From NCBI RefSeq assembly GCF_020520425.1, contig NC_079492.1, positions 72,655,671 to 72,719,670 of the forward strand: 64,000 bases of DNA, in the 5' to 3' direction. This document shows, piece by piece, positions 4,568 through 33,576 of this stretch; positions within the stretch are counted from its first letter, which is position 1; each line of letters starts with the position of its first letter. The notes beneath the pieces were generated by a model, which searched no databases, was not told the origin of the DNA, and worked only from the letters and a program-made list of their open reading frames with translations. Made by a program: the position numbers and the translations under genes. Source of the stretch: Spinacia oleracea (Eukaryota; Streptophyta; Magnoliopsida; Caryophyllales; Amaranthaceae).

Positions 4568-4594
4568 CTAGTCTTATATGCACGCGATGCGTGC
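4568..4594 (-). other. Helitron 3' terminus: hairpin and CTAG end
   Basis: On the minus strand the stem-loop GCACGC-ATC-GCGTGC (plus-strand 4580-4594) is followed by ATATAAGA and the terminal CTAG (4571-4568). A short GC hairpin about 10-12 bases before a CTRR end is the Helitron termination signal. The same structure recurs at the start of all eight units. Confidence 0.92.
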
Positions 4595-4828
4595 GGGATT
4601 ATATATAAAATTAAAAATTTAGTTAATACAACTAATTATAATAAATACTATGCAATAAAAATTGTTCAAAAACTAAACCAACAGAAAATGTCATGCTTTG
4701 CAAATTTGTGTTATTGAAGATATTGTATGGCTTTCTATTAACAACATTTTCCCTATGTAAAGGGGAAAAAAATATAATAATTTCTAGCTTAATATCTAAA
4801 AAGAAGGAAAACATCCTTTAATTCCTAT

Positions 4829-5313
4829 TCAAGGAAATCTGCTAATCGCCCTTTCAAGCAAATTATTCACAGCTAGAGTGAATGCATCTTCAAATTTCCC
4901 CAACTTGGTGTTAGCAGTTGCATAAACCAACCTAGGCATCAACTCATTAATAATATACTTCCTCATTTGTTGCGTTTCTTTTCGAGGGATCTTCATAAGC
5001 CTCTCTATCACATTCACCCATGACAGCTTGACCTCGTCTTGGTCTATAAACACGGAATACTTCCAGGATAATGTGCCGTGAATGGATCAAACACAACAGG
5101 GATGCAGCCAACAATGAGAGAATCAAACATGGACTTTCTCGTTGGACTGTCCCCTGGAGGCTGAAGGCAAAAATCCGATGCCATGAAAAGTTTCTCAACA
5201 TGTACTGATTTAATACATAATTCTCCTATACAGTTTAAGAAGTTGCAGACTTTATTTGGAGCAGAAATGCATTGTTCAATGAGGATCGATCTTTCAAGTG
5301 TGAATTCATGGAG
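4829..5313 (-). pseudogene. GT47 (exostosin/MUR3-like) glycosyltransferase C-terminal fragment, copy 1
   Basis: The parent family makes Golgi-located wall-polysaccharide glycosyltransferases, e.g. xyloglucan galactosyltransferases. In the minus-strand frame I read, in order, ILIEQC, FLNC, VEKLF, the hallmark [14 protein letters not shown] (about 5135-5180), and [21 protein letters not shown] deletion with frameshift then falls near 5060-5078, removing the stretch that normally carries a QYTWHLP-like motif. The other frame continues [32 protein letters not shown] and a natural-looking stop at 4829. Only about 160 of the usual 450-600 residues remain and there is no start codon. Sense strand matches Helitron orientation, as is common for captured genes. 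The exact GT47 clade is uncertain. Confidence 0.85.
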
Positions 5314-5344
5314 TAAACATGAAAAAGGTAAAAAACGGACTTAC

Positions 5345-5457
5345 CGGTATACCCAAGGCCCAAGATTTAGCCGCAGCAGCTACTGCCTTATTCGAACCAT
5401 TCATCCCTTGACCATCCTCACTATATCCTCCAAAGAATTATGCACTAAGAAATCATC
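5345..5457 (-). other. Exon-like captured fragment with splice-site motifs (Helitron copy 1)
   Basis: On the minus strand TTTGGTGCAG precedes and GTAAGTCC follows a 113 bp stretch. One frame reads GYSEDGQGMNGSNKAV then AAAAKSWALGIP up to the donor. Acceptor, open frame and strong donor together look like an exon taken from a host gene. I do not recognise the protein. It sits just upstream of the GT47 remnant in Helitron orientation and recurs in all copies. Confidence 0.4.
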
Positions 5458-6061
5458 CTGCACCAAATTTCAACACTAATTACCCCGAAATCTAAACACT
5501 TTACATGGATAGTCAATAGCTCAACTGTTAATAAAATCTAACAAACCCGCGATGAATGGGTGACCAATACGCAACGTTTCAGCTTCGAAAACAGGAAATC
5601 ATGGCTAAATCTTCCAATTGCAGCAAACAGAAGTATCGCCAATACATCCCCACCAGCTAATAACGCAACTTTCCTGAAATTTTAACAAAATAGTAAAGTA
5701 TGCTGAGTTTTTTCGCAAAATAATCAACATAACCAATTAAATTCTAAGAACATATATATATGCACGCTTCTAATTCATAAAATAAGAGTAAATAAATTTA
5801 GTCAAAAACAGAAAAATCGAAATATGCACTGAGTGAGCAGAAATTAGAACGATAGAAACCCATCATGTGAAGATACGTATCGTGATAAAATGAGTAAGGT
5901 ACAAAATCTCGATAATCCACAATTAGAAGGTGAATAAAGGTTTCAATATCGAATAGGTTAATTCTGATAAAAATTAACAGAGTAATTTAATAATAGAGAT
6001 AAACCGATGTCTCTAGTCACTCCAAACCTCGGGTAATTGGGCACATAATTGAGTCATATAC

Positions 6062-6119
6062 CTTCACCATCAGCAGGAACATAAGCTGAGCGCCTTGATT
6101 GGACTTGCTGATATGTCGG
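6062..6119 (-). other. Small exon-like captured fragment (Helitron copy 1)
   Basis: The minus strand reads TTTCTCAG, then 58 bp open in the frame PTYQQVQSRRSAYVPADGE, then GTATATGA. Splice-like borders flank a short open piece. The source gene is not recognised. It may belong with the other exon-like pieces. Confidence 0.35.
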
Positions 6120-6911
6120 CTGAGAAATTAAAAACATAAGTAGCATTTAGACTTTTAAAATAATGAAAGGAGTAGGTCAAAATAGCAGATTTCCTTCTTA
6201 ATGGAAGTTATTTAAGCACTTATTCAATTTTAGGACGACAACAGGTTATATATTGTTTTGTTTGTTGTCATCAGAATATTTTTTTTATTTCGGTACTTAC
6301 TCATAGAGATTACTTATGCACACCAAACAGAACAGACTGCACCTGAACTCAAGAACATCCAATTACTGAAATGCTGCACACTAACAACATCACTCCACAC
6401 AACAACAACTGGAGAGAAAACCTTACTTGAAAGCACCAGCAAAGCAACAGTAGAAAGTAACAGCAGCAAGCCAGCAACAACCAGACACTGCACACTGTAA
6501 ACCACAGCAGCAGACAACCAATAACAGACGCAGCAGCTACACGAACAAACACTCAATTATAAAACTTTGAATGAAGCAAAATTAACAAAATTAAGAAACG
6601 AAATGGGCATCAAAATCAATGCATTGCGATATTCTGAATGAGTCAATGCAATTCAAATAAATTTCAGCAACTATTAACACTACAACAAAGAAAGTAAAAC
6701 TTAGGGCTAATTATAGTGGGGGAGAAAGAAAGCATACCGAATTAGAAGAGGAAACAACGCTGGAAGAGAAGAGACAGCGAGATAGAGAAACTTAGGGCTA
6801 AATATACTCTGCACACCTAAAATTAAGATCAATCAAAAGTAAGAAAGAGAAAGATGCAATGGAAAAGATCCAGGAGAGTGTTAATATTTTGAGAGGGAAG
6901 AGATACGATAC

Positions 6912-7064
6912 CTCAAAAACCAAATCATTGAGGACGGTGGCAAGAAGCTCAAACATTTAACATGATTCCTTTTCAAAATGCTTATTGTAAGCTCTAAGCA
7001 CATTAGACGGGCTTGTCCTTGCTATGTAAATGTTCTCCTTGTTGTCCTCTATGTCTGCTGGCAC
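6912..7064 (-). other. Exon-like captured fragment ending in a stop (Helitron copy 1)
   Basis: On the minus strand GAATCTACAG precedes GTGCCAGCAG. The frame reads VPADIEDNKENIYIAR, then TSPSNVLRAYNKHFEKESC and TAA at about 6958-6960. Downstream MFELLATVLNDLVFE runs into GTATCG. It is either a last coding exon with 3' UTR or a fused piece. The family is not recognised. Another donor-like AAG|GTAATT lies near 7441. Confidence 0.35.
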
Positions 7065-8187
7065 CTGTAGATTCATCATCATTCATTGAACACCACAATT
7101 TACCAACAATTTTAGCTGCAGATTGTATGAAGATTGATCACCTTAGATAGCCACTGGAGGCTATACGAAGAATGAACAAAATGCAAGTGGTTGGTGGGAA
7201 AAAGCCTGTCATAAAAAGAGCCAGGGACACCATTCACAAAACAATACCCAAAATCCATATTCTTTAGTAAATTACCAATAAAAAGACATCTTATTTAAAC
7301 AAATATCCATGTTCATCACCATTTTTAAAAATTTACTGTGAAAATAAGATAAATCCAGATCCACAACAACAATTGACAGGCGAAATTTCAAAGCAATTGA
7401 AAAATTAATCAAAAAACAGAGAGATTGGAAGAAATAATTACCTTAATATTCGACGGAGATAATGAGGGAAAACGGTTGCCGAGAAGTGGACGTCGATGGA
7501 AACTAAAAATTAACCTCAGCAGAAACCTCAGCAAACTAAAAATTAACTAAAATCCTGAAGAAAAAAATCACGAACCAAAATTAAATTACCAACACCTAAT
7601 TCAAAAGAAAATCAGAATATTGCTTGAAAATAATCACAAAACGAAATTAAATTACCAACACCTAATTAAAATCGTAATAATTATCAAAACAGAAAGAAAA
7701 AAATCCCCAGAAAAAGAAATGTAATTTAAACAAACAGAAAAGCAAATGAAGAACTGTTACCTGATAATCGAAGAAGATCGATCAAACTCGTCGATTAATC
7801 GAATATTTATTATGAAAATTTCATTTTCCTTCCCTAAACCCCTAAATTCAATTATTTATTACGAAAATTTCAATTTTCCCCCAAATTTGAATCTATCTCC
7901 TCCAATGGTAAATCGATCGAAGGAGAGGAAGAAGATCGAGGGATAGGATGAATAAGATCGAAGGCATCTTTAGAGGAAAAAGATCGAAGAAGATCAAAGA
8001 GGATTTGAGTGGTATTCGTAGATGAAGAAGATCGAAGGAGAAAACGGGAGTGAGGAAGGAGAGATCAAACGGGAAGGAGGAGAGAGAAAACGGTGGAACA
8101 GGAAGCCAGAAAGGGCTCAGGGCAGTTTAGTATAGAGGGTATATTCGTATTTTTCCTTGGGGACACGAAAAGTTATTTTACCAAAAA

Positions 8188-8217
8188 GACCTCAGCTGTT
8201 CCTTTATATAATAGAGA
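8188..8217 (-). other. Helitron 5' terminus (TC end) at the copy 1/copy 2 junction
   Basis: The minus strand begins TCTCTATTATATAAAGGAAC at 8217 and reads inward to lower coordinates. It directly follows copy 2's terminal CTAG (8221-8218). The TC start with a TCTCTA..TATA body is typical of plant Helitrons. The junction recurs at 11867, 15517, 19167, 22816, 26465 and 30116. Confidence 0.88.
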
Positions 8218-11200
8218 CTAGTCTTATATGCACGCGATGCGTGCGGGATTATATATAAAATTAAAAATTTAGTTAATACAACTAATTATAATAAATACTG
8301 TGCAATAAAAATTGTTCAAAAACTAAACCAACAGAAAATGTCATGCTTTGCAAATTTGTGTTATTGAAGATATTGTATGGCTTTCTATTAACAACCTTTT
8401 CCCTATGTAAAGGGGAAAAAAATATAATAATTTCTAGCTTAATATCTAAAAAGAAGGAAAACATCCTTTAATTCCTATTCAAGGAAATCTGCTAATCGCC
8501 CTTTCAAGCAAATTATTCACAGCTAGAGTGAATGCATCTTCAAATTTCTCCAACTTGGTGTTAGCAGTTGCATAAACCAACCTAGGCATCAACTCATTAA
8601 TAATATACTTCCTCATTTGTTGCGTTTCTTTTCGAGGGATCTTCATAAGCCTCTCTATCACATTCACCCATGACAGCTTGACCTCGTCTTGGTCTATAAA
8701 CACGGAATACTTCCAGGATAATGTGTCGTGAATGGATCAAACACAACAGGGATGCAGCCAACAATGAGAGAATCAAACATGGACTTTCTCGTTGGACTGT
8801 CCCCTGGAGGCTGAAGGGAAAAATCCGATGCCATGAAAAGTTTCTCAACATGTACTGATTTAATACATGATTCTCCTATACAGTTTAAGAAGTTGCAGAC
8901 TTTATTTGGAGCAGAAATGCATTGTTCAATGAGGATCGATCTTTCAAGTGTGAATTCATGGAGTAAACATGAAAAAGGGAAAAAACGGACTTACCGGTAT
9001 ACCCAAGGCCCAAGATTTAGCCGCAGCAGCTACTGCCTTATTCGAACCATTCATCCCTTGACCATCCTCACTATATCCTCCAAAGAAGTATGCACTAAGA
9101 AATCATCCTGTACCAAATTTCAACACTAATTACCCCGAAATCTAAACACTTTACATGGATAGTCAATAGCTCAACTGTTAATAAAATCTAACAAACCCGC
9201 GATGAATGGGTGACCAATACGCAACGTTTCAGCTTCGAAAACAGGAAATCATGGCTAAATCTTCCAATTGCAGCAAACAGAAGTATCGCCAATACATCCC
9301 CACCAGCTAATAACGCAACTTTCCTGAAATTTTAACAAAATAGTAAAGTATGCTGAGTTTTTTCGCAAAATAATCAACATAACCAATTAAATTCTAAGAA
9401 CATATATATATGCACGCTTCTAATTCATAAAATAAGAGTAAATAAATTTAGTCAAAAACAGAAAAATCGAAATATGCACTGAGTGAGCAGAAATTAGAAC
9501 GATAGAAACCCATCATGTGAAGATACGTATCGTGATAAAATGAGTAAGGTACAAAATCTCGATAATCCACAATTAGAAGGTGAATAAAGGTTTCAATATC
9601 GAATAGGTTAATTCCGATAAAAATTAACAGAGTAATTTAATAATAGAGATAAACCGATGTCTCTAGTCACTCCAAACCTCGGGTAATTGGGCACATAATT
9701 GAGTCATATACCTTCACCATCAGCAGGAACATAAGCTGAGCGCCTTGATTGGACTTGCTGATATGTCGGCTGAGAAATTAAAAACATAAGTAGCATTTAG
9801 ACTTTTAAAATAATGAAAGGAGTAGGTCAAAATAGCAAATTTCCTTCTTAATGGAAGTTATTTAAGCACTTATTCAATTTTAGGACGACAACAGGTTATA
9901 TATTGTTTTGTTTGTTGTCATCAGAATATATTTTTTATTTCGGTACTTACTCATAGAGATTACTTATGCACACCAAACAAAACAGACTGCACCTGAAATC
10001 AAGAACATCCAATTACTGAAATGCTGCACACTAACAACATCACTCCACACAACAACAACTGGAGAGAAAACCTTACTTGAAAGCACCAGCAAAGCAACAG
10101 TAGAAAGTAACAGCAGCAAGCCAGCAACAACCAGACACTGCACACTGTAAACCACAGCAGCAGACAACCAATAACAGACGCAGCAGCTACACGAACAAAC
10201 ACTCAATTATAAAACTTTGAATGAAGCAAAATTAACAAAATTAAGAAACGAAATGGGCATCAAAATCAATGCATTGCGATATTCTGAATGAGTCAATGCA
10301 ATTCAAATAAATTTCAGCAACTATTAACACTACAACAAAGAAAGTAAAACTTAGGGCTAATTATAGTGGGGGAGAAAGAAAGCATACCGAATTAGAAGAG
10401 GAAACAACGCTGGAAGAGAAGAGACAGCGAGATAGAGAAACTTAGGGCTAAATATACTCTGCACACCTAAAATTAAGATCAATCAAAAGTAAGAGAGAGA
10501 AAGATGCAATGGAAAAGATCCAGGAGAGTGTTAATATTTTGAGAGGGAAGAGATACGATACCTCAAAAACCAAATCATTGAGGACGGTGGCAAGAAGCTC
10601 AAACATTTAACATGATTCCTTTTCAAAATGCTTATTGTAAGCTCTAAGCACATTAGACGGGCTTGTCCTTGCTATGTAAATGTTCTCCTTGTTGTCCTCT
10701 ATGTCTGCTGGCACCTGTAGATTCATCATCATTCATTGAACACCACAATTTACCAACAATTTTAGCTGCAGATTGTATGAAGATTGATCACCTTAGATAG
10801 CCACTAGAGGCTATACGAAGAATGAACAAAATGCAAGTGGTTGGTGGGAAAAAGCCTGTCATAAAAAGAGCCAGGGACACCATTCACAAAACAATACCCA
10901 AAATCCATATTCTTTAGTAAATTACCAATAAAAAGACATCTTATTTAAACAAATATCCATGTTCATCACCATTTTTAAAAATTTTCTGTGAAAATAAGAT
11001 AAATCCAGATCCACAACAACAATTGACAGGCGAAATTTCAAAGCAATTGAAAAATTAATCAAAAAACAGAGAGATTGGAAGAAATAATTACCTTAATATT
11101 CGACGGAGATAATGAGGGAAAACGGTTGCCGAGAAGTGGACGTCGATGGAAACTAAAAATTAACCTCAGCAGAAACCTCAGCAAACTAAAAATTAACTAA

Positions 11201-11867
11201 AATCCTGAAGAAAAAAATCACGAACCAAAATTAAATTACCAACACCTAATTCAAAAGAAAATCAGAATATTGCTTGAAAATAATCACAAAACGAAATTAA
11301 ATTACCAACACCTAATTAAAATCGTAATAATTATCAAAACAGAAAGAAAAAAATCCCCAGAAAAAGAAATGTAATTTAAACAAACAGAAAAGCAAATGAA
11401 GAACTGTTACCTGATAATCGAAGAAGATCGATCAAACTCGTCGATTAATCGAATATTTATTATGAAAATTTCATTTTCCTTCCCTAAACCCCTAAATTCA
11501 ATTATTTATTACGAAAATTTCAATTTTCCCCCAAATTTGAATCTATCTCCTCCAATGGTAAATCGATCGAAGGAGAGGAAGAAGATCGAGGGATAGGATG
11601 AATAAGATCGAAGGCATCTTTAGAGGAAAAAGATCGAAGAAGATCAAAGAGGATTTGAGTGGTATTCGTAGATGAAGAAGATCGAAGGAGAAAACGGGAG
11701 TGAGGAAGGAGAGATCAAACGGGAAGGAGGAGAGAGAAAACGGTGGAACAGGAAGCCAGAAAGGGCTCAGGGCAGTTTAGTATAGAGGGTATATTCGTAT
11801 TTTTCCTTGGGGACACGAAAAGTTATTTTACCAAAAAGACCTCAGCTGTTCCTTTATATAATAGAGA
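8218..11867 (-). mobile_element. Helitron copy 2
   Basis: Complete 3,650 bp unit with the same internal order as copy 1. It shares with copies 3 and 4 the variants AAGGGAAAAAACGG (near 8976) and CCTGTACC (near 9108), and with copy 3 alone CTGAAGGGAAAAATCC (near 8813). Confidence 0.9.
8479..8963 (-). pseudogene. GT47 fragment, Helitron copy 2
   Basis: Same remnant with the same frameshifting deletion as copy 1. KLEKFEDAF here replaces KLGKFEDAF of copy 1. Inherited through array amplification. Confidence 0.83.
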
Positions 11868-14800
11868 CTAGTCTTATATGCACGCGATGCGTGCGGGATT
11901 ATATATAAAATTAAAAATTTAGTTAATACAACTAATTATAATAAATACTGTGCAATAAAAATTGTTCAAAAACTAAACCAACAGAAAATGTCATGCTTTG
12001 CAAATTTGTGTTATTGAAGATATTGTATGGCTTTCTATTAACAACATTTTCCCTATGTAAAGGGGAAAAAAATATAATAATTTCTAGCTTAATATCTAAA
12101 AAGAAGGAAAACATCCTTTAATTCCTATTCAAGGAAATCTGCTAATCGCCCTTTCAAGCAAATTATTCACAGCTAGAGTGAATGCATCTTCAAATTTCTC
12201 CAACTTGGTGTTAGCAGTTGCATAAACCAACCTAGGCATCAACTCATTAATAATATACTTCCTCATTTGTTGCGTTTCTTTTCGAGGGATCTTCATAAGC
12301 CTCTCTATCACATTCACCCATGACAGCTTGACCTCGTCTTGGTCTATAAACACGGAATACTTCCAGGATAATGTGCCGTGAATGGATCAAACACAACAGG
12401 GATGCAGCCAACAATGAGAGAATCAAACATGGACTTTCTCGTTGGACTGTCCCCTGGAGGCTGAAGGGAAAAATCCGATGCCATGAAAAGTTTCTCAACA
12501 TGTACTGATTTAATACATGATTCTCCTATACAGTTTAAGAAGTTGCAGACTTTATTTGGAGCAGAAATGCATTGTTCAATGAGGATCGATCTTTCAAGTG
12601 TGAATTCATGGAGTAAACATGAAAAAGGGAAAAAACGGACTTACCGGTATACCCAAGGCCCAAGATTTAGCCGCAGCAGCTACTGCCTTATTCGAACCAT
12701 TCATCCCTTGACCATCCTCACTATATCCTCCAAAGAAGTATGCACTAAGAAATCATCCTGTACCAAATTTCAACACTAATTACCCCGAAATCTAAACACT
12801 TTACATGGATAGTCAATAGCTCAACTGTTAATAAAATCTAACAAACCCGCGATGAATGGGTGACCAATACGCAACGTTTCAGCTTCGAAAACAGGAAATC
12901 ATGGCTAAATCTTCCAATTGCAGCAAACAGAAATATCGCCAATACATCCCCACCAGCTAATAACGCAACTTTCCTGAAATTTTAACAAAATAGTAAAGTA
13001 TGCTGAGTTTTTTCGCAAAATAATCAACATAACCAATTAAATTCTAAGAACATATATATATGCACGCTTCTAATTCATAAAATAAGAGTAAATAAATTTA
13101 GTCAAAAACAGAAAAATTGAAATATGCACTGAGTGAGCAGAAATTAGAACGATAGAAACCCATCATGTGAAGATACGTATCGTGATAAAATGAGTAAGGT
13201 ACAAAATCTCGATAATCCACAATTAGAAGGTGAATAAAGGTTTCAATATCGAATAGGTTAATTCCGATAAAAATTAACAGAGTAATTTAATAATAGAGAT
13301 AAACCGATGTCTCTAGTCACTCCAAACCTCGGGTAATTGGGCACATAATTGAGTCATATACCTTCACCATCAGCAGGAACATAAGCTGAGCGCCTTGATT
13401 GGACTTGCTGATATGTCGGCTGAGAAATTAAAAACATAAGTAGCATTTAGACTTTTAAAATAATGAAAGGAGTAGGTCAAAATAGCAGATTTCCTTCTTA
13501 ATGGAAGTTATTTAAGCACTTATTCAATTTTAGGACGACAACAGGTTATATATTGTTTTGTTTGTTGTCATCAGAATATATTTTTTATTTCGGTACTTAC
13601 TCATAGAGATTACTTATGCACACCAAACAGAACAGACTGCACCTGAAATCAAGAACATCCAATTACTGAAATGCTGCACACTAACAACATCACTCCACAC
13701 AACAACAACTGGAGAGAAAACCTTACTTGAAAGCACCAGCAAAGCAACAGTAGAAAGTAACAGCAGCAAGCCAGCAACAACCAGACACTGCACACTGTAA
13801 ACCACAGCAGCAGACAACCAATAACAGACGCAGCAGCTACACGAACAAACACTCAATTATAAAACTTTTAATGAAGCAAAATTAACAAAATTAAGAAACG
13901 AAATGGGCATCAAAATCAATGCATTGCGATATTCTGAATGAGTCAAAACAATTCAAATAAATTTCAGCAACTATTAACACTACAACAAAGAAAGTAAAAC
14001 TTAGGGCTAATTATAGTGGGGGAGAAAGAAAGCATACCGAATTAGAAGAGGAAACAACGCTGGAAGAGAAGAGACAGCGAGATAGAGAAACTTAGGGCTA
14101 AATATACTCTGCACACCTAAAATTAAGATCAATCAAAAGTAAGAAAGAGAAAGATGCAATGGAAAAGATCCAGGAGAGTGTTAATATTTTGAGAGGGAAG
14201 AGATACGATACCTCAAAAACCAAATCATTGAGGACGGTGGCAAGAAGCTCAAACATTTAACATGATTCCTTTTCAAAATGCTTATTGTAAGCTCTAAGCA
14301 CATTAGACGGGCTTGTCCTTGCTATGTAAATGTTCTCCTTGTTGTCCTCTATGTCTGCTGGCACCTGTAGATTCATCATCATTCATTGAACACCACAATT
14401 TACCAACAATTTTAGCTGCAGATTGTATGAAGATTGATCACCTTAGATAGCCACTGGAGGCTATACGAAGAATGAACAAAATGCAAGTGGTTGGTGGGAA
14501 AAAGCCTGTCATAAAAAGAGCCAGGGACACCATTCACAAAACAATACCCAAAATCCATATTCTTTAGTAAATTACCAATAAAAAGACATCTTATTTAAAC
14601 AAATATCCATGTTCATCACCATTTTTAAAAATTTACTGTGAAAATAAGATAAATCCAGATCCACAACAACAATTGACAGGCGAAATTTCAAAGCAATTGA
14701 AAAATTAATCAAAAAACAGAGAGATTGGAAGAAATAATTACCTTAATATTCGACGGAGATAATGAGGGAAAACGGTTGCCGAGAAGTGGACGTCGATGGA

Positions 14801-15517
14801 AACTAAAAATTAACCTCAGCAGAAACCTCAGCAAACTAAAAATTAACTAAAATCCTGAAGAAAAAAATCACGAACCAAAATTAAATTACCAACACCTAAT
14901 TCAAAAGAAAATCAGAATATTGCTTGAAAATAATCACAAAACGAAATTAAATTACCAACACCTAATTAAAATCGTAATAATTATCAAAACAAAAAGAAAA
15001 AAATCCCCAGAAAAAGAAATGTAATTTAAACAAACAGAAAAGCAAATGAAGAACTGTTACCTGATAATCGAAGAAGATCGATCAAACTCGTCGATTAATC
15101 GAATATTTATTACGAAAATTTCATTTTCCTTCCCTAAACCCCTAAATTCAATTATTTATTACGAAAATTTCAATTTTCCCCCAAATTTGAATCTATCTCC
15201 TCCAATGGTAAATCGATCGAAGGAGAGGAAGAAGATCGAGGGATAGGATGAATAAGATCGAAGGCATCTTTAGAGGAAAAAGATCGAAGAAGATCAAAGA
15301 GGATTTGAGTGGTATTCGTAGATGAAGAAGATCGAAGGAGAAAACGGGAGTGAGGAAGGAGAGATCAAACGGGAAGGAGGAGAGAGAAAACGGTGGAACA
15401 GGAAGCCAGAAAGGGCTCAGGGCAGTTTAGTATAGAGGGTATATTCGTATTTTTCCTTGGGGACACGAAAAGTTATTTTACCAAAAAGACCTCAGCTGTT
15501 CCTTTATATAATAGAGA
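11868..15517 (-). mobile_element. Helitron copy 3
   Basis: Complete 3,650 bp unit. It belongs with copies 2 and 4 at the marker sites near offsets 762 and 892. A private change GTCAAAACAATTC near 13943 replaces the GTCAATGCAATTC of the other units. Confidence 0.9.
12129..12613 (-). pseudogene. GT47 fragment, Helitron copy 3
   Basis: Same truncated, frameshifted GT47 remnant. The downstream frame from FIDQDEV to the stop is intact. Confidence 0.83.
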
Positions 15518-18500
15518 CTAGTCTTATATGCACGCGATGCGTGCGGGATTATATATAAAATTAAAAATTTAGTTAATACAACTAATTATAATAAATACTG
15601 TGCAATAAAAATTGTTCAAAAACTAAACCAACAGAAAATGTCATGCTTTGCAAATTTGTGTTATTGAAGATATTGTATGGCTTTCTATTAGCAACATTTT
15701 CCCTATGTAAAGGGGAAAAAAATATAATAATTTCTAGCTTAATATCTAAAAAGAAGGAAAACATCCTTTAATTCCTATTCAAGGAAATCTGCTAATCGCC
15801 CTTTCAAGCAAATTATTCACAGCTAGAGTGAATGCATCTTCAAATTTCTCCAACTTGGTGTTAGCAGTTGCATAAACCAACCTAGGCATCAACTCATTAA
15901 TAATATACTTCCTCATTTGTTGCGTTTCTTTTCAAGGGATCTTCATAAGCCTCTCTATCACATTCACCCATGACAGCTTGACCTCGTCTTGGTCTATAAA
16001 CACGGAATACTTCCAGGATAATGTGCCGTGAATGGATCAAACACAACAGGGATGCAGCCAACAATGAGAGAATCAAACATGGACTTTCTCGTTGGACTGT
16101 CCCCTGGAGGCTGAAGGCAAAAATCCGATGCCATGAAAAGTTTCTCTACATGTACTGATTTAATACATGATTCTCCTATACAGTTTAAGAAGTTGCAGAC
16201 TTTATTTGGAGCAGAAATGCATTGTTCAATGAGGATCGATCTTTCAAGTGTGAATTCATGGAGTAAACATGAAAAAGGGAAAAAACGGACTTACCGGTAT
16301 ACCCAAGGCCCAAGATTTAGCCGCAGCAGCTACTGCCTTATTCGAACCATTCATCCCTTGACCATCCTCACTATATCCTCCAAAGAAGTATGCACTAAGA
16401 AATCATCCTGTACCAAATTTCAACACTAATTACCCCGAAATCTAAACACTTTACATGGATAGTCAATAGCTCAACTGTTAATAAAATCTAACAAACCCGC
16501 GATGAATGGGTGACCAATACGCAACGTTTCAGCTTCGAAAACAGGAAATCATGGCTAAATCTTCCAATTGCAGCAAACAGAAGTATCGCCAATACATCCC
16601 CACCAGCTAATAACGCAACTTTCCTGAAATTTTAACAAAATAGTAAAGTATGCTGAGTTTTTTCGCAAAATAATCAACATAACCAATTAAATTCTAAGAA
16701 CATATATATATGCACGCTTCTAATTCATAAAATAAGAGTAAATAAATTTAGTCAAAAACAGAAAAATCGAAATATGCACTGAGTGAGCAGAAATTAGAAC
16801 GATAGAAACCCATCATGTGAAGATACGTATCGTGATAAAATGAGTAAGGTACAAAATCTCGATAATCCACAATTAGAAGGTGAATAAAGGTTTCAATATC
16901 GAATAGGTTAATTCCGATAAAAATTAACAGAGTAATTTAATAATAGAGATAAACCGATGTCTCTAGTCACTCCGAACCTCGGGTAATTGGGCACATAATT
17001 GAGTCATATACCTTCACCATCAGCAGGAACATAAGCTGAGCGCCTTGATTGGACTTGCTGATATGTCGGCTGAGAAATTAAAAACATAAGTAGCATTTAG
17101 ACTTTTAAAATAATGAAAGGAGTAGGTCAAAATAGCAGATTTCCTTCTTAATGGAAGTTATTTAAGCACTTATTCAATTTTAGGACGACAACATGTTATA
17201 TATTGTTTTGTTTGTTGTCATCAGAATATATTTTTTATTTCGGTACTTACTCATAGAGATTACTTATGCACACCAAACAGAACAGACTGCACCTGAAATC
17301 AAGAACATCCAATTACTGAAATGCTGCACACTAACAACATCACTCCACACAACAACAACTGGAGAGAAAACCTTACTTGAAAGCACCAGCAAAGCAACAG
17401 TAGAAAGTAACAGCAGCAAGCCAGCAACAACCAGACACTGCACACTGTAAACCACAGCAGCAGACAACCAATAATAGACGCAGCAGCTACACGAACAAAC
17501 ACTCAATTATAAAACTTTGAATGAAGCAAAATTAACAAAATTAAGAAACGAAATGGGCATCAAAATCAATGCATTGCGATATTCTGAATGAGTCAATGCA
17601 ATTCAAATAAATTTCAACAACTATTAACACTACAACAAAGAAAGTAAAACTTAGGGCTAATTATAGTGGGGGAGAAAGAAAGCATACCGAATTAGAAGAG
17701 GAAACAACGCTGGAAGAGAAGAGACAGCGAGATAGAGAAACTTAGGGCTAAATATACTCTGCACACCTAAAATCAAGATCAATCAAAAGTAAGAAAGAGA
17801 AAGATGCAATGGAAAAGATCCAGGAGAGTGTTAATATTTTGAGAGGGAAGAGATACGATACCTCAAAAACCAAATCATTGAGGACGGTGGCAAGAAGCTC
17901 AAACATTTAACATGATTCCTTTTCAAAATGCTTATTGTAAGCTCTAAGCACATTAGACGGGCTTGTCCTTGCTATGTAAATGTTCTCCTTGTTGTCCTCT
18001 ATGTCTGCTGGCACCTGTAGATTCATCATCATTCATTGAACACCACAATTTACCAACAATTTTAGCTGCAGATTGTATGAAGATTGATCACCTTAGATAG
18101 CCACTGGAGGCTATACGAAGAATGAACAAAATGCAAGTGGTTGGTGGGAAAAAGCCTGTCATAAAAAGAGCCAGGGACACCATTCACAAAACAATACCCA
18201 AAATCCATATTCTTTAGTAAATTACCAATAAAAAGACATCTTATTTAAACAAATATCCATGTTCATCACCATTTTTAAAAATTTACTGTGAAAATAAGAT
18301 AAATCCAGATCCACAACAACAATTGACAGGCGAAATTTCAAAGCAATTGAAAAATTAATCAAAAAACAGAGAGATTGGAAGAAATAATTACCTTAATATT
18401 CGACGGAGATAATGAGGGAAAACGGTTGCCGAGAAGTGGACGTCGATGGAAACTAAAAATTAACCTTAGCAGAAACCTCAGCAAACTAAAAATTAACTAA

Positions 18501-22100: not shown

Positions 22101-22816
22101 ACTAAAAATTAACCTCAGCAGAAACCTCAGCAAACTAAAAATTAACTAAAATCCTGAAGAAAAAAATCACGAACCAAAATTAAATTACCAACACCTAATT
22201 CAAAAGAAAATCAGAATATTGCTTGAAAATAATCACAAAACGAAATTAAATTACCAACACCTAATTAAAATCGTAATAATTATCAAAACAGAAAGAAAAA
22301 AATCCACAGAAAAAGAAATGTAATTTAAACAAACAGAAAAGCAAATGAAGAACTGTTACCTGATAATCGAAGAAGATCGAACAAACTCGTCGATTAATCG
22401 AAAATTTATTACGAAAATTTCATTTTCCTTCCCTAAACCCCTAAATTCAATTATTTATTATGAAAATTTCAATTTTCCCCCAAATTTGAATCTATCTCCT
22501 CCAATGGTAAATCGATCGAAGGAGAGGAAGAAGATCGAGGGATAGGATGAATAAGATCGAAGGCATCTTTAGAGGAAAAAGATCGAAGAAGATCAAAGAG
22601 GATTTGAGTGGTATTCGTAGATGAAGAAGATCGAAGGAGAAAACGGGAGTGCGGAAGGAGAGATCTAACGGGAAGGAGGAGAGAGAAAACGGTGGAACAG
22701 GAAGCCAGAAAGGGCTCAGGGCAGTTTAGTATAGAGGGTATATTCGTATTTTTCCTTGGGGACACGAAAAGTTATTTTACCAAAAAGACCTCAGCTGTTC
22801 CTTTATATAATAGAGA
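19168..22816 (-). mobile_element. Helitron copy 5
   Basis: Complete 3,649 bp unit. The missing base is in CCGAAAAAATT near 20564 (CCGATAAAAATT elsewhere), shared with copies 6 and 7. With copy 6 it shares AGATCTAACGGG near 22661 and TCCACAG near 22303. Confidence 0.9.
19429..19913 (-). pseudogene. GT47 fragment, Helitron copy 5
   Basis: Same remnant and deletion. Small substitutions lie in its upstream part (AATAAACATG instead of AGTAAACATG just beyond its left limit). Confidence 0.83.
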
Positions 22817-25800
22817 CTAGTCTTATATGCACGCGATGCGTGCGGGATTATATATAAAATTAAAAATTTAGTTAATACAACTAATTATAATAAATACTGT
22901 GCAATAAAAATTGTTCAAAAACTAAACCAACAGAAAATGTCATGCTTTGCAAATTTGTGTTATTGAAGATATTGTATGGCTTTCTATTAACAACATTTTC
23001 CCTATGTAAAGGGGAAAAAAATATAATAATTTCTAGCTTAATATCTAAAAAGAAGGAAAACATCCTTTAATTCCTATTCAAGGAAATCTGCTAATCGCCC
23101 TTTCAAGCAAATTATTCACAGCTAGAGTGAATGCATCTTCAAATTTCTCCAACTTGGTGTTAGCAGTTGCATAAACCAACCTAGGCATCAACTCATTAAT
23201 AATATACTTCCTCATTTGTTGCGTTTCTTTTCGAGGGATCTTCATAAGCCTCTCTATCACATTAACCCATGACAGCTTGACCTCGTCTTGGTCTATAAAC
23301 ACGGAATACTTCCAGGATAATGTGCCGTGAATGGATCAAACACAACAGGGATGCAGCCAACAATGAGAGAATCAAACATGGACTTTCTCGTTGGACTGTC
23401 CCTTGGAGGCTGAAGGCAAAAATCCGATGCCATGAAAAGTTTCTCAACATGTACTGATTTAATTCATGATTCTCCTATACAGTTTAAGAAGTTGCAGACT
23501 TTATTTGGAGCAGAAATGCATTGTTCAATGAGGATCGATCTTTCAAGTGTGAATTCATGGAGTAAACATGAAAAAGGTAAAAAACGGACTTACCGGTATA
23601 CCCAAGGCCCAAGATTTAGCCGCAACAGCTACTGCCTTATTCGAACCATTCATCCCTTGACCATCCTCACTATATCCCCCAAAGAAGTATGCACTAAGAA
23701 ATCATCCTGCACCAAATTTCAACACTAATTACCCCGAAATCTAAACACTTTACATGGATAGTCAATAGCTCAACTGTTAATAAAATCTAACAAACCCGCG
23801 ATGAATGGGTGACCAATACGCAACGTTTCAGCTTCGAAAACAGGAAATCATGGCTAAATCTTCCAATTGCAGCAAACAGAAGTATCGCCAATACATCCCC
23901 ACCAGCTAATAACGCAACTTTCCTGAAATTTTAACAAAATAGTAAAGTATGCTGAGTTTTTTCGCAAAATAATCAACATAACCAATTAAATTCTAAGAAC
24001 ATATATATATGCACGCTTCTAATTCATAAAATAAGAGTAAATAAATTTAGTCAAAAACAGAAAAATCGAAATATGCACTGAGTGAGCAGAAATTAGAACG
24101 ATAGAAACCCATCATGTGAAGATACGTATCGTGATAAAATGAGTAAGGTACAAAATCTCGATAATCCACAATTAGAAGGTGAATAAAGGTTTCAATATCG
24201 AATAGGTTAATTCCGAAAAAATTAACAGAGTAATTTAATAATAGAGATAAACCGATGTCTCTAGTCACTCCAAACCTCGGGTAATTGGGCACATAATTGA
24301 GTCATATACCTTCACCATCAGCAGGAACATAAGCTGAGCGCCTTGATTGGACTTGCTGATATGTCGGCTGAGAAATTAAAAACATAAGTAGCATTTAGAC
24401 TTTTAAAATAATGAAAGGAGTAGGTCAAAATAGCAGATTTCCTTCTGAATGGAAGTTATTTAAGCACTTATTCAATTTTAGGACGACAACAGGTTATATA
24501 TTGTTTTGTTTGTTGTCATCAGAATATATTTTTTATTTCGGTACTTACTCATAGAGATTACTTATGCACACCAAACAGAACAGACTACACCTGAAATCAA
24601 GAACATCCAATTACTGAAATGCTGCACACTAACAACATCACTCCACACAACAACAACTGGAGAGAAAACCTTACTTGAAAGCACCAGCAAAGCAACAGTA
24701 GAAAGTAACAGCAGCAAGCCAGCAACAACCAGACACTGCACACTGTAAACCACAGCAGCAGACAACCAATAACAGACGCAGCAGCTACACGAACAAACAC
24801 TCAATTATAAAACTTTGAATGAAGCAAAATTAACAAAATTAAGAAACGAAATGGGCATCAAAATCAATGCATTGCGATATTCTGAATGAGTCAATGCAAT
24901 TCAAATAAATTTCAGCAACTATTAACACTACAACAAAGAAAGTAAAACTTAGGGCTAATTATAGTGGGGGAGAAAGAAAGCATACCGAATTAGAAGAGGA
25001 AACAACGCTGGAAGAGAAGAGACAGCGAGATAGAGAAACTTAGGGCTAAATATACTCTGCACACCTAAAATCAAGATCAATCAAAAGTAAGAAAGAGAAA
25101 GATGCAATGGAAAAGATCCAGGAGAGTGTTAATATTTTGAGAGGGAAGAGATACGATACCTCAAAAACCAAATCATTGAGGACGGTGGCAAGAAGCTCAA
25201 ACATTTAACATGATTCCTTTTCAAAATGCTTATTGTAAGCTCTAAGCACATTAGACGGGCTTGTCCTTGCTATGTAAATGTTCTCCTTGTTGTCCTCTAT
25301 GTCTGCTGGCACCTGTAGATTCATCATCATTCATTGAACACCACAATTTACCAACAATTTTAGCTGCAGATTGTATGAAGATTGATCACCTTAGATAGCC
25401 ACTGGAGGCTATACGAAGAATGAACAAAATGCAAGTGGTTGGTGGGAAAAAGCCTGTCATAAAAAGAGCCAGGGACACCATTCACAAAACAATACCCAAA
25501 ATTCATATTCTTTAGTAAATTACATATAAAAAGACATCTTATTTAAACAAATATCCATGTTCATCACCATTTTTAAAAATTTACTGTGAAAATAAGATAA
25601 ATCCAGATCCACAACAACAATTGACAGGCGAAATTTCAAAGCAATTGAAAAATTAATCAAAAAACAGAGAGATTGGAAGAAATAATTACCTTAATATTCG
25701 ACGGAGATAATGAGGGAAAACGGTTGCCGAGAAGTGGACGTCGATGGAAACTAAAAATTAACCTCAGCAGAAACCTCAGCAAACTAAAAATTAACTAAAA

Positions 25801-26465
25801 TCCTGAAGAAAAAAATCACGAACCAAAATTAAATTACCAACACCTAATTCAAAAGAAAATCAGAATATTGCTTGAAAATAATCACAAAACGAAATTAAAT
25901 TACCAACACCTAATTAAAATCGTAATAATTATCAAAACAGAAAGAAAAAAATCCACAGAAAAAGAAATGTAATTTAAACAAACAGAAAAGCAAATGAAGA
26001 ACTGTTACCTGATAATCGAAGAAGATCGATCAAACTCGTCGATTAATCGAATATTTATTACGAAAATTTCATTTTCCTTCCCTAAACCCCTAAATTCAAT
26101 TATTTATTACGAAAATTTCAATTTTCCCCCAAATTTGAATCTATCTCCTCCAATGGTAAATCGATCGAAGGAGAGGAAGAAGATCGAGGGATAGGATGAA
26201 TAAGATCGAAGGCATCTTTAGAGGAAAAAGATCGAAGAAGATCAAAGAGGATTTGAGTGGTATTCGTAGATGAAGAAGATCGAAGGAGAAAACGGGAGTG
26301 CGGATGGAGAGATCTAACGGGAAGGAGGAGAGAGAAAACGGTGGAACAGGAAGCCAGAAAGGGCTCAGGGCAGTTTAGTATAGAGGGTATATTCGTATTT
26401 TTCCTTGGGGACACGAAAAGTTATTTTACCAAAAAGACCTCAGCTGTTCCTTTATATAATAGAGA
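22817..26465 (-). mobile_element. Helitron copy 6
   Basis: Complete 3,649 bp unit with the one-base deletion of copies 5 and 7 (near 24213). It shares ATATCCCCCAAAG near 23671 only with copy 7, and AGATCTAACGGG near 26310 only with copy 5. Confidence 0.9.
23078..23562 (-). pseudogene. GT47 fragment, Helitron copy 6
   Basis: Same remnant and deletion. A private ATTAACCCATG near 23262 replaces ATTCACCCATG. Confidence 0.83.
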
Positions 26466-29400
26466 CTAGTCTTATATGCACGCGATGCGTGCGGGATTAT
26501 ATATAAAATTAAAAATTTAGTTAATACAACTAATTATAATAAATACTGTGCAATAAAAATTGTTCAAAAACTAAACCAACAGAAAATGTCATGCTTTGCA
26601 AATTTGTGTTATTGAAGATATTGTATGGCTTTCTATTAACAACATTTTCCCTATGTAAAGGGGAAAAAAATATAATAATTTCTAGCTTAATATCTAAAAA
26701 GAAGGAAAACATCCTTTAATTCCTATTCAAGGAAATCTGCTAATCGCCCTTTCAAGCAAATTATTCACAGCTAGAGTGAATGCATCTTCAAATTTCTCCA
26801 ACTTGGTGATAGCAGTTGCATAAACCAACCTAGGCATCAACTCATTAATAATATACTTCCTCATTTGTTGCGTTTCTTTTCGAGGGATCTTCATAAGCCT
26901 CTCTATCACATTCACCCATGACAGCTTGACCTCGTCTTGGTCTATAAACACGGAATACTTCCAGGATAATGTGCCGTGAATGGATCAAACACAACAGGGA
27001 TGCAGCCAACAATGAGAGAATCAAACATGGACTTTCTCGTTGGACTGTCCCCTGGAGGCTGAAGGCAAAAATCCGATGCCATGAAAAGTTTCTCAACATG
27101 TACTGATTTAATACATGATTCTCCTATACAGTTTAAGAAGTTGCAGACTTTATTTGGAGCAGAAATGCATTGTTCAATGAGGATCGATCTTTCAAGTGTG
27201 AATTCATGGAGTAAACATGAAAAAGGTAAAAAACGGACTTACCGGTATACCCAAGGCCCAAGATTTAGCCGCAGCAGCTACTGCCTTATTCGAACCATTC
27301 ATCCCTTGACCATCCTCACTATATCCCCCAAAGAAGTATGCACTAAGAAATCATCCTGCACCAAATTTCAACACTAATTACCCCGAAATCTAAACACTTT
27401 ACATGGATAGTCAATAGCTCAACTGTTAATAAAATCTAACAAACCCGCGATGAATGGGTGACCAATACGCAACGTTTCAGCTTCGAAAACAGGAAATCAT
27501 GGCTAAATCTTCCAATTGCAGCAAACAGAAGTATCGCCAATACATCCCCACCAGCTAATAACGCAACTTTCCTGAAATTTTAACAAAATAGTAAAGTATG
27601 CTGAGTTTTTTCGCAAAATAATCAACATAACCAATTAAATTCTAAGAACATATATATATATGCACGCTTCTAATTCATAAAATAAGAGTAAATAAATTTA
27701 GTCAAAAACAGAAAAATCGAAATATGCACTGAGTGAGCAGAAATTAGAACGATAGAAACCCATCATGTGAAGATACGTATCGTGATAAAATGAGTAAGGT
27801 ACAAAATCTCGATAATCCACAATTAGAAGGTGAATAAAGGTTTCAATATCGAATAGGTTAATTCCGAAAAAATTAACAGAGTAATTTAATAATAGAGATA
27901 AACCGATGTCTCTAGTCACTCCAAACCTCGGGTAATTGGGCACATAATTGAGTCATATACCTTCACCATCAGCAGGAACATAAGCTGAGCGCCTTGATTG
28001 GGCTTGCTGATATGTCGGCTGAGAAATTAAAAACATAAGTAGCATTTAGACTTTTAAAATAATGAAAGGAGTAGGTCAAAATAGCAGATTTCCTTCTTAA
28101 TGGAAGTTATTTAAGCACTTATTCAATTTTAGGACGACAACAGGTTATATATTGTTTTGTTTGTTGTCATCAGAATATATTTTTTATTTCGGTACTTACT
28201 CATAGAGATTACTTATGCACACCAAACAGAACAGACTGCACCTGAAATCAAGAACATCCAATTACTGAAATGCTGCACACTAACAACATCACTCCACACA
28301 ACAACAACTGGAGAGAAAACCTTACTTGAAAGCACCAGCAAAGCAACAGTAGAAAGTAACAGCAGCAAGCCAGCAACAACCAGACACTGCACACTGTAAA
28401 CCACAGCAGCAGACAACCAATAATAGACGCAGCAGCTACACGAACAAACACTCAATTATAAAACTTTGAATGAAGCAAAATTAACAAAATTAAGAAACGA
28501 AATGGGCATCAAAATCAATGCATTGCGATATTCTGAATGAGTCAATGCAATTCAAATAAATTTCAGCAACTATTAACACTACAACAAAGAAAGTAAAACT
28601 TAGGGCTAATTATAGTGGGGGAGAAAGAAAGCATACCGAATTAGAAGAGGAAACTACGCTGGAAGAGAAGAGACAGCGAGATAGAGAAACTTAGGGCTAA
28701 ATATACTCTGCACACCTAAAATCAAGATCAATCAAAAGTAAGAAAGAGAAAGATGCAATGGAAAAGATCCAGGAGAGTGTTAATATTTTGAGAGGGAAGA
28801 GATACGATACCTCAAAAACCAAATCATTGAGGACGGTGGCAAGAAGCTCAAACATTTAACATGATTCCTTTTCAAAATGCTTATTGTAAGCTCTAAGCAC
28901 ATTAGACGGGCTTGTCCTTGCTATGTAAATGTTCTCCTTGTTGTCCTCTATGTCTGCTGGCACCTGTAGATTCATCATCATTCATTGAACACCACAATTT
29001 ACCAACAATTTTAGCTGCAGATTGTATGAAGATTGATCACCTTAGATAGCCACTGGAGGCTATACGAAGAATGAACAAAATGCAAGTGGTTGGTGGGAAA
29101 AAGCCTGTCATAAAAAGAGCCAGGGACACCATTCACAAAACAATACCCAAAATCCATATTCTTTAGTAAATTACCAATAAAAAGACATCTTATTTAAACA
29201 AATATCCATGTTCATCACCATTTTTAAAAATTTACTGTGAAAATAAGATAAATCCAGATCCACAACAACAATTGACAGGCGAAATTTCAAAGCAATTGAA
29301 AAATTAATCAAAAAACAGAGAGATTGGAAGAAATAATTACCTTAATATTCGACGGAGATAATGAGGGAAAACGGTTGCCGAGAAGTGGACGTCGATGGAA

Positions 29401-30116
29401 ACTAAAAATTAACCTCAGCAGAAACCTCAGCAAACTAAAAATTAACTAAAATCCTGAAGAAAAAAATCACGAACCAAAATTAAATTACCAACACCTAATT
29501 CAAAAGAAAATCAGAATATTGCTTGAAAATAATCACAAAACGAAATTAAATTACCAACACCTAATTAAAATCGTAATAATTATCAAAACAGAAAGAAAAA
29601 AATCCCCAGAAAAAGAAATGTAATTTAAACAAACAGAAAAGCAAATGAAGAACTGTTACCTGATAATCGAAGAAGATCGATCAAACTCGTCGATTAATCG
29701 AATATTTATTATGAAAATTTCATTTTCCTTCCCTAAACCCCTAAATTCAATTATTTATTACGAAAATTTCAATTTTCCCCCAAATTTGAATCTATCTCCT
29801 CCAATGGTAAATCGATCGAAGGAGAGGAAGAAGATCGAGGGATAGGATGAATAAGATCGAAGGCATCTTTAGAGGAAAAAGATCGAAGAAGATCAAAGAG
29901 GATTTGAGTGGTATTCGTAGATGAAGAAGATCGAAGGAGAAAACGGGAGTGAGGAAGGAGATATCAAACGGGAAGGAGGAGAGAGAAAACGGTGGAACAG
30001 GAAGCCAGAAAGGGCTCAGGGCAGTTTAGTATAGAGGGTATATTCGTATTTTTCCTTGGGGACACGAAAAGTTATTTTACCAAAAAGACCTCAGCTGTTC
30101 CTTTATATAATAGAGA
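26466..30116 (-). mobile_element. Helitron copy 7
   Basis: Complete 3,651 bp unit: the shared one-base deletion (near 27863) is offset by one extra AT in the (AT)n run near 27650-27661. ATATCCCCCAAAG near 27320 ties it to copy 6. Confidence 0.9.
26727..27211 (-). pseudogene. GT47 fragment, Helitron copy 7
   Basis: Same remnant and deletion. An Asn to Ile change (ATAITKLEKF) is private to this copy. Confidence 0.83.
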
Positions 30117-33104
30117 CTAGTCTTATATGCACGCGATGCGTGCGGGATTATATATAAAATTAAAAATTTAGTTAATACAACTAATTATAATAAATACTGT
30201 GCAATAAAAATTGTTCAAAAACTAAACCAACAGAAAATGTCATGCTTTGCAAATTTGTGTTATTGAAGATATTGTATGGCTTTCTATTAACAACATTTTC
30301 CCTATGTAAAGGGGAAAAAAATATAATAATTTCTAGCTTAATATCTAAAAAGAAGGAAAACATCCTTTAATTCCTATTCAAGGAAATCTGCTAATCGCCC
30401 TTTCAAGCAAATTATTCACAGCTAGAGTGAATGCATCTTCAAATTTCTCCAACTTGGTGTTAGCAGTTGCATAAACCAACCTAGGCATCAACTCATTAAT
30501 AATATACTTCCTCATTTGTTGCGTTTCTTTTCGAGGGATCTTCATAAGCCTCTCTATCACATTCACCCATGACAGCTTGACCTCGTCTTGGTCTATAAAC
30601 ACGGAATACTTCCAGGATAATGTGCCGTGAATGGATCAAACACAACAGGGATGCAGCCAACAATGAGAGAATCAAACATGGACTTTCTCGTTGGACTGTC
30701 CCCTGGAGGCTGAAGGCAAAAATCCGATGCCATGAAAAGTTTCTCAACATGTACTGATTTAATACATGATTCTCCTATACAGTTTAAGAAGTTGCAGACT
30801 TTATTTGGAGCAGAAATGCATTGTTCAATGAGGATCGATCCTTCAAGTGTGAATTCATGGAGTAAACATGAAAAAGGTAAAAAACGGACTTACCGGTATA
30901 CCCAAGGCCCAAGATTTAGCCGCAGCAGCTACTGCCTTATTCGAACCATTCATCCCTTGACCATCCTCACTATATCCTCCAAAGAAGTATGCACTAAGAA
31001 ATCATCCTGCACCAAATTTCAACACTAATTACCCCGAAATCTAAACACTTTACATGGATAGTCAATAGCTCAACTGTTAATAAAATCTAACAAACCCGCG
31101 ATGAATGGGTGACCAATACGCAACGTTTCAGCTTCGAAAACAGGAAATCATGGCTAAATCTTCCAATTGCAGCAAACAGAAGTATCGCCAATACATCCCC
31201 ACCAGCTAATAACGCAACTTTCCTGAAATTTTAACAAAATAGTAAAGTATGCTGAGTTTTTTCGCAAAATAATCAACATAACCAATTAAATTCTAAGAAC
31301 ATATATATATGCACGCTTCTAATTCATAAAATAAGAGTAAATAAATTTAGTCAAAAACAGAAAAATCGAAATATGCACTGAGTGAGCAGAAATTAGAACG
31401 ATAGAAACCCATCATGTGAAGATACGTATCGTGATAAAATGAGTAAGGTACAAAATCTCGATAATCCACAATTAGAAGGTGAATAAAGGTTTCAATATCG
31501 AATAGGTTAATTCCGATAAAAATTAACAGAGTAATTTAATAATAGAGATAAACCGATGTCTCTAGTCACTCCAAACCTCGGGTAATTGGGCACATAATTG
31601 AGTCATATACCTTCACCATCAGCAGGAACATAAGCTGAGCGCCTTGATTGGACTTGCTGATATGTCGGCTGAGAAATTAAAAACATAAGTAGCATTTAGA
31701 CTTTTAAAATAATGAAAGGAGTAGGTCAAAATAGCAGATTTCCTTCTTAATGGAAGTTATTTAAGCACTTATTCAATTTTAGGACGACAACAGGTTATAT
31801 ATTGTTTTGTTTGTTGTCATCAGAATATTTTTTTTATTTCGGTACTTACTCATAGAGATTACTTATGCACACCAAACAGAACAGACTGCACCTGAAATCA
31901 AGAACATCCAATTACTGAAATGCTGCACACTAACAACATCACTCCACACAACAACAACTGGAGAGAAAACCTTACTTGAAAGCACCAGCAAAGCAACAGT
32001 AGAAAGTAACAGCAGCAAGCCAGCAACAACCAGACACTGCACACTGTAAACCACAGCAGCAGACAACCAATAACAGACGCAGCAGCTACACGAACAAACA
32101 CTCAATTATAAAACTTTGAATGAAGCAAAATTAACAAAATTAAGAAACGAAATGGGCATCAAAATCAATGCATTGCGATATTCTGAATGAGTCAATGCAA
32201 TTCAAATAAATTTCAGCAACTATTAACACTACAACAAAGAAAGTAAAACTTAGGGCTAATTATAGTGGGGGAGAAAGAAAGCATACCGAATTAGAAGAGG
32301 AAACAACGCTGGAAGAGAAGAGACAACGAGATAGAGAAACTTAGGGCTAAATATACTCTGCACACCTAAAATCAAGATCAATCAAAAGTAAGAAAGATAA
32401 AGATGCAATGGAAAAGATCAAGGGGAGTGTTAATATTTTGAGAGGGAAGAGATACGATACCTCAAAAACCAAATCATTGAGGACGGTGGCAAGAAGCTCA
32501 AACATTTAACATGATTCCTTTTCAAAATGCTTATTGTAAGCTCTAAGCACATTAGACGGGCTTGTCCTTGCTATGTAAATGTTCTCCTTGTTGTCCTCTA
32601 TGTCTGCTGGCACCTGTAGATTCATCATCATTCATTGAACACCACAATTTACCAACAATTTTAGCTGCAGATTGTATGAAGATTGATCACCTTAGATAGC
32701 CACTGGAGGCTATACGAAGAATGAACAAAATGCAAGTGGTTGGTGGGAAAAAGCCTGTCATAAAAAGAGCCAGGGACACCATTCACAAAACAATACCCAA
32801 AATCCATATTCTTTAGTAAATTACCAATAAAAAGACATCTTATTTAAACAAATATCCATGTTCATCACCATTTTTAAAAATTTACTGTGAAAATAAGATA
32901 AATCCAGATCCACAACAACAATTGACAGGCGAAATTTCAAAGCAATTGAAAAATTAATCAAAAAACAGAGAGATTGGAAGAAATAATTACCTTAATATTC
33001 GACGGAGATAATGAGGGAAAACGGTTGCCGAGAAGTGGACGTCGATGGAAACTAAAAATTAACCTCAGCAGAAACCTCAGCAAACTAAAAATTAACTAAA
33101 ATCC
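30117..33104 (-). mobile_element. Helitron copy 8, truncated at its 5' end
   Basis: The first 2,988 bp of the unit (its 3' part) match the others; the 662 bp holding the TC terminus are missing. Identity stops after AACTAAAATCC at 33104 and gypsy-like sequence starts at once. It lacks the one-base deletion of copies 5-7 and carries AATCAAGATC like copies 4-7. The GT47 remnant and exon-like pieces are still present. Confidence 0.88.
30378..30862 (-). pseudogene. GT47 fragment, Helitron copy 8
   Basis: Same remnant and deletion. It is preserved because the truncation removed the opposite end of the unit. Confidence 0.83.
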
Positions 33105-33226
33105 GATAATGTTTAGGGTTGTTTGCAAGCACTTCCCTAAACTAGGATCATTTCAAAATAAGAGCACATCAAAGATCAAACCTTTTCCACATTAAAAGGT
33201 CAAATCTTTGAGATTCAAGACTCTTA

Positions 33227-33332
33227 AGTTCAATATTTCAAGTTCAAGTTCAATATTTCAAAGTTCAATATTTCAAGTTCAATATTTCAAGTCCAATATT
33301 TCAAGATTCAAACTTTTCAAGTTCAAGTTCTA
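33227..33332. repeat. Short tandem repeat of GTTCAATATTTCAA type
   Basis: About five to six imperfect copies of a 14-17 base unit built from AAGTTC and AATATTTC, inside the LTR-like sequence. Confidence 0.8.
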
Positions 33333-33464
33333 TGTTCAAAATCTAAGACACTTTAGGTCGAGCAACTTGACCTAAAGTAGAGATTTTTGCTTTAAATATA
33401 TCCGTGTCGGGCGCACTTACTTGGCGTTCGGATCTCATGTGCTAAGATTCAAGTTCAATATCGT

Positions 33465-33576
33465 ACTTTCAATTATGCAATTTCAATACCGCACTTTCAA
33501 TTATGCAATTTCAATTCTGCACTTTCAATTATGCAATTTCAATTCTGCACTTTCAATCATGCAATTTCAATTCCGC
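33465..33576. repeat. Four exact-length 28 bp tandem repeats
   Basis: Units at 33465-33492, 33493-33520, 33521-33548 and 33549-33576, each ACTTTCAATTATGC followed by AATTTCAATTCTGC with one to three differences. The second and third are identical. An open frame across them is a by-product of the repeat. Confidence 0.9.

Follow-up and report, generated by a model that had tools for sequence, protein, structure and literature searches.

A tandem array of a gene-fragment-carrying Helitron in Spinacia oleracea and its possible origin from a joined-end intermediate

A 28.5-kb tandem array of Helitron units, fused end to end and all retaining the 3' terminator, was found in a window of 64,000 nucleotides of the Spinacia oleracea genome (NCBI RefSeq assembly GCF_020520425.1, contig NC_079492.1, positions 72,655,671 to 72,719,670 of the forward strand). 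The array is best read as a multimer that arose by copying of a joined-end intermediate, probably a circle, with a probability of roughly 0.55 for this reading, and the circular or rolling-circle origin proposed in the original prediction appears to be a fair first choice. The evidence includes seven identical spacer-free junctions, an outer left edge lying exactly at the Helitron 3' end and followed by T, a large majority of variants private to one unit, and a host repeat that continues in register across the joined flanks.

Array structure and strand of the element

Self-comparison of the whole window revealed a period of 3650 bp, with diagonals at this spacing running from 4567 to 33104 at an identity of 99.36-99.60%, and placed the array at 4568-33104. 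Seven of its units are full-length (3649-3651 bp), the remaining one measures 2988 bp, and all share a single orientation (Table 1). A Tandem Repeats Finder run did not report the array because its longest period was 500. The same 19 bases, TAGAGACTAGTCTTATATG, occur at all seven junctions (starting at 8212, 11862, 15512, 19162, 22811, 26460 and 30111), with zero bases inserted between copies. Both the array of 3'-to-5' fused units, seven complete and one partial, and its seamless CTAG|TC junctions had been predicted and are confirmed by these boundaries.

According to the available text of PMC6591975, canonical plant Helitrons start with TC, end in CTRR (mostly CTAG), carry a GC-rich hairpin of 16-20 nt located 10-15 nt upstream of the 3' end, and insert between A and T without terminal inverted repeats or target duplication, a Rep/helicase gene being present in autonomous elements only. 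In the spinach array, TC (TCTCTATT...) was found at the 5' end of the seven complete units, U8 having no 5' end, and CTAG closes all eight units. A hairpin with a 6-bp stem and a 3-nt loop, 15 nt long and thus slightly short of the canonical length, ends 12 nt before the 3' end in 8/8 units, on the minus strand only. When both strands of the whole window were scanned for GC-rich stems of at least 6 bp located 4-13 nt before CTAG, eight sites were detected on the minus strand, corresponding to the eight unit ends, and none on the plus strand, on which basis a plus-strand Helitron was rejected. The predicted fold energy was -9.6 kcal/mol for the minus-strand hairpin, compared with -2.0 kcal/mol for a weak AT hairpin at the plus-strand candidate end. 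With up to five mismatches allowed, the window contains matches to the 5' terminus TCTCTATTATATAAAGGAACAGC in the seven complete units only.

The Helitron-like termini noted in the original prediction were thus recovered, whereas its strand has to be reversed. CTAG|TC is legible on both strands because the junction GACTAGTC is its own reverse complement, which also explains the earlier choice of strand. Since the hairpin occurs only on the minus strand, the left edge of the array coincides exactly with a 3' end (CTAG|T), and what the partial unit lacks is its 5' part and not, as had been supposed, its 3' part. In minus-strand order, U8, without 662 bp, stands at the 5' side of the array and U1, whose CTAG lies against host T (position 4567), comes last.

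Table 1. Features of the Helitron array and of the sequence around it (window positions)
Feature	Positions	Strand	Description
LTR-like host, left of array	3643..4567	+	First copy of a ~133-bp repeat (about 4405-4553); second copy begins at about 4539
U1	4568..8217	-	Complete, 3650 bp; 3' end CTAG at 4568-4571 adjoins host T (plus strand: A at 4567), the exact 3' edge of the array
U2	8218..11867	-	Complete, 3650 bp; unit taken for protein family scans
3' terminus (U2 example)	8218..8249	-	Hairpin GCACGC-ATC-GCGTGC, then ATATAAGACTAG; identical in 8/8 units
Captured GT47 exostosin (PF03016) fragment, U2	8482..8858	-	Two frames; above Pfam cut-off
Captured DUF3054 (PF11255) fragment, U2	8992..9319	-	Three pieces; under Pfam's cut-off, backed by protein relatives
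Captured SABATH methyltransferase (PF03492) fragment, U2	10613..10944	-	Two frames; above Pfam cut-off
5' terminus (U2 example)	11845..11867	-	TCTCTATTATATAAAGGAACAGC
U3	11868..15517	-	Complete, 3650 bp
U4	15518..19167	-	Complete, 3650 bp
U5	19168..22816	-	Complete, 3649 bp
U6	22817..26465	-	Complete, 3649 bp
U7	26466..30116	-	Complete, 3651 bp
U8	30117..33104	-	5' truncated, 2988 bp, without first 662 bp; 33104 is the truncated array edge
LTR-like host, right of array	33105..34135	+	33105-33223 continues the second 133-bp repeat copy in register

Gene cargo and host sequence

No Rep/helicase Pfam family was found in the three sense frames of U2, and as far as these frames go the Helitron appears to be non-autonomous, which is still compatible with membership in this group. 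Fragments of three plant genes were detected in the same unit, all of them in the sense orientation of the Helitron and each split into pieces across frames; the original prediction had anticipated both the lack of a transposase and the captured gene fragments. A query joining the fragments matched 119 proteins via its GT47 or DUF3054 parts, none of which was marked as a SABATH relative, and the best relatives of these two parts were chenopod proteins (72% for GT47 in Chenopodium quinoa and 88% for DUF3054 in Spinacia oleracea), which points to a probable host in the Amaranthaceae/Chenopodiaceae. A three-gene chimaera is thereby repeated about eightfold at one locus. Tandem KCS genes have been tied to Helitrons in Populus (available text of PMC13253262).

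The sequence around the array looks like an LTR, in agreement with the predicted location, judging from sequence signs: TGTCTACA follows a purine-rich tract at about 3643, and CCCCTACA precedes a PBS-like stretch at about 34135. Purine-rich tracts and PBS-like motifs are taken here to be signs of LTR elements. With the purine-rich tract on the left and the PBS-like stretch on the right, the LTR-like host (3616-4567 and 33105-34175) appears as if one LTR were common to two element copies or lay between two internal regions. It also contains, at 33226-33582, short motifs of 14 and 28 bp repeated in tandem. Elsewhere in the window, an inverted pair of ~700 bp (308-1010 and 2645-3334, 86% alike, ~1.6 kb apart) lies to the left of the array, and 36205-62541 is occupied by several complete or fragmentary members of a single Ty1/copia family, which lie in both orientations, are 72-96% similar and are nested or rearranged among each other; for this family, named matches came from many plants among the 120 of 7922 matches listed.

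The host carries a diverged 133-bp repeat whose second copy is split by the array, and the joined flanks keep the register of this repeat. On the joined flanks, the highest end-anchored score fell on the predicted base, 4435 (P 0.003 relative to 300 shuffled queries). On the other hand, 28 of 1790 host positions gave an equal or higher end-anchored score, the top eight all at 33232-33241, beside the other repeat copy, and a less constrained register test gave P 0.03. Because the register is kept, the loss of host DNA would be at most small despite the cut 5' unit, with possibly one or two bases missing. A joint deletion of host sequence and the 5' part of U8 was considered and dropped, as the repeat continues in register across the joined flanks. 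The same observation suggests that the truncation belongs to the integration and did not arise by deletion afterwards; a subsequent deletion would have had to end at the border by chance, so that a 5' end lost by the time of integration is the simpler explanation. At the insertion site, T follows the 3' end, whereas the truncated 5' side reads host C where an A|T target would have A. This base counts against the multimer reading, and fits either joining by repair, not by transposase, or one changed base.

Divergence among units and competing origins

Any two units are 11-28 substitutions apart (mean 0.56%). The 71 substitution columns comprise 60 private ones, each confined to a single unit, and 11 shared ones, and indels occupy three columns that represent two events. 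As most columns are private, most of the divergence postdates the array. Private change amounts to a mean of 0.21% per unit (0.11-0.33%), which at plant substitution rates of 0.7-1.3e-8 per site and year corresponds to an age of about 0.16-0.3 million years. C>T or G>A accounts for 26 of the 60 private changes, of which 14 fall at 214 CHG, 5 at 160 CG and 7 at 913 CHH sites (CHG vs CHH, P 1.8e-6; CG vs CHH, P 0.023), and this concentration at CHG suggests a methylated, silenced array. The substitutions between units, together with a spectrum such as real mutation of methylated DNA produces and only two indel events, argue against an assembly artefact, in which one or a few true copies would have been written out repeatedly; we consider this highly improbable.

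The private fraction bears on how the array grew. In simulations that took all columns as eight-unit, though U8 lacks the first 662 bp, the mean share of private columns was 59% under stepwise duplication and 46% under steady turnover, and a share of 85% was reached with P 0.055 and 0.078, respectively. The surplus of private variants relative to either model is therefore only suggestive, which weakens the case for a multimer, and a quick burst of whatever kind, followed by rest, would give the same pattern. With linked columns merged and one indel included, six of nine shared patterns lay in neighbouring units when minority sets were counted (P 0.008), and eight of nine when either side was counted (P 0.001). 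Sharing above chance implies that neighbours exchanged sequence or that growth was partly local; it is not predicted by a single copying event alone and in this respect also counts against the multimer. Mean differences at spacings of one to seven units were 0.52, 0.60, 0.60, 0.59, 0.53, 0.48 and 0.40%, and ordered growth was rejected because the pairwise difference has no steady trend with spacing.

The main rival to the multimer is that a single event, involving either a circle or a second insertion at the 5' A|T, produced a seamless dimer, which unequal sister-chromatid exchange then rapidly expanded to nearly eight units. A single founding junction would suffice for this, the sharing between neighbours is in its favour, and stepwise growth is not rejected by the private share (P 0.055). 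On the other hand, the dominance of private variants requires rapid growth compared with the age of the array, the differences lack a clear trend with spacing, and expansion of a dimer alone leaves the 5' truncation beside intact host sequence unexplained. Taken together, we regard this origin as rather unlikely, although it comes closest to the preferred one.

Next in order are serial insertions, in which copies of a young family would each have hit the A|T at which host A meets the leading TC of the resident copy, no multimer being involved. An A|T at the Helitron 5' edge permits this in principle, and such insertion also yields CTAG|TC; the earlier argument that host bases should normally remain between independently inserted copies was thus overstated. 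The authors describing three tandem Helitron copies in Metarhizium weighed serial insertion and read the trio both ways (available text of PMC5148889), and dimers of transposable elements in Drosophila were attributed mainly to insertion site preference (McGurk and Barbash, as cited in part of the review PMC12628747). However, seven hits of one family on one dinucleotide, all in the same orientation, would be needed to account for the junctions, and sharing between neighbours is not predicted, so that we consider serial insertion improbable.

Proposed multimer formation and comparison with known systems

In the preferred reading, a minus-strand Helitron that probably has no transposase gene of its own would have been mobilised by a Rep/helicase supplied from elsewhere, and a joined-end, probably circular, intermediate would have been copied several times past the intact 3' terminator. 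The multimer would then have entered the LTR. Precise cleavage at CTAG by the transposase would have produced the 3' end that adjoins host T, while the 662 bp missing from the 5' end may have been lost no later than the joining step. Some sequence would subsequently have passed between adjacent units through gene conversion or unequal exchange, and mutations would have accumulated in the array, chiefly at CHG cytosines. In the available text on the bat Helitron Helraiser, precise end-to-end junctions and circles are described (PMC5876387), and bypass of its 3' terminator is reported to be possible (PMC4778049). By contrast, the 3' terminator is lost in the published model of Helitron arrays, which results in numerous 5' ends and one 3' end (Xiong et al. 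2016, via the available text of PMC12628747), whereas the terminator is kept in 8/8 units here, and the circles recovered from transgenic maize were all deleted at one or both ends (available text of PMC10095026). Exact searches gave 0 matches for the junction in viral_contigs and 0 for the 3' end in genome_contigs, both collections being unsuited to a plant element. Neither a circle nor a further copy of the family came to light, which counts against the multimer.

Helitron arrays are already known. The centromeric arrays of plants (Xiong, Dooner and Du 2016, known here second hand via parts of PMC12628747, PMC5876387 and PMC10095026) are likewise tandem, in one orientation and read as rolling-circle products. 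As cited there, they consist of partly decayed truncated units in up to hundreds of repeats, are mostly centromeric, and often combine numerous 5' ends with just one 3' end; in the spinach array, both ends are present in the seven complete units, hairpin and CTAG occur in 8/8, and one unit is 5'-cut, a structure different from the terminator-less type with one 3' end. Helraiser, a reconstructed bat Helibat1, similarly forms circles with precise 3'-to-5' junctions and TC/CTAG ends, as far as described in the accessible parts of PMC5876387 and PMC4778049, and its 19-bp palindrome located 11 nt from the 3' end resembles the spinach stem-loop, which is 15 nt long and lies 12 nt from the end. Its circles, however, are experimental, single-unit and from human cells, whereas no circle was seen for the spinach element.

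Other systems resemble the array in part. The Metarhizium acridum trio also has tandem copies and the same two candidate explanations, but it comprises three copies of a fungal Helitron2-type element (PMC5148889, partial text). For a tRNA-Cys cluster of Arabidopsis thaliana that overlaps annotated Helitrons, a Helitron array formed by failed termination was likewise considered, although its units are 0.4 kb long and the Helitron programs used by the authors gave no reliable element over the tRNA genes (PMC10701932, partial text). In one-ended transposition of IS91, missed termination also makes tandem copies (via the same partial text); this element is bacterial and the termination signal is absent, whereas in spinach the signal is present in every unit. 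No description of a complete, terminator-bearing, gene-carrying Helitron array was found in the open papers searched, in which Xiong et al. 2016 was represented second hand, and this is not proof of absence.

According to the available texts, terminator loss has so far been the explanation given for plant arrays (PMC12628747), and transgenic maize has yielded only imprecise circle junctions (PMC10095026). It may tentatively be proposed, at lower confidence than the multimer itself, that a plant Helitron was copied several times from a precise circle through its intact 3' hairpin terminator and integrated as a terminator-bearing multimer, with a 3' end made by transposase and a 5' end trimmed and joined by repair. 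If this is true, array formation needs no loss of the terminator. A young array with seven exact junctions, kept terminators, a readable host site and eight comparable units offers a natural record of multimer formation.
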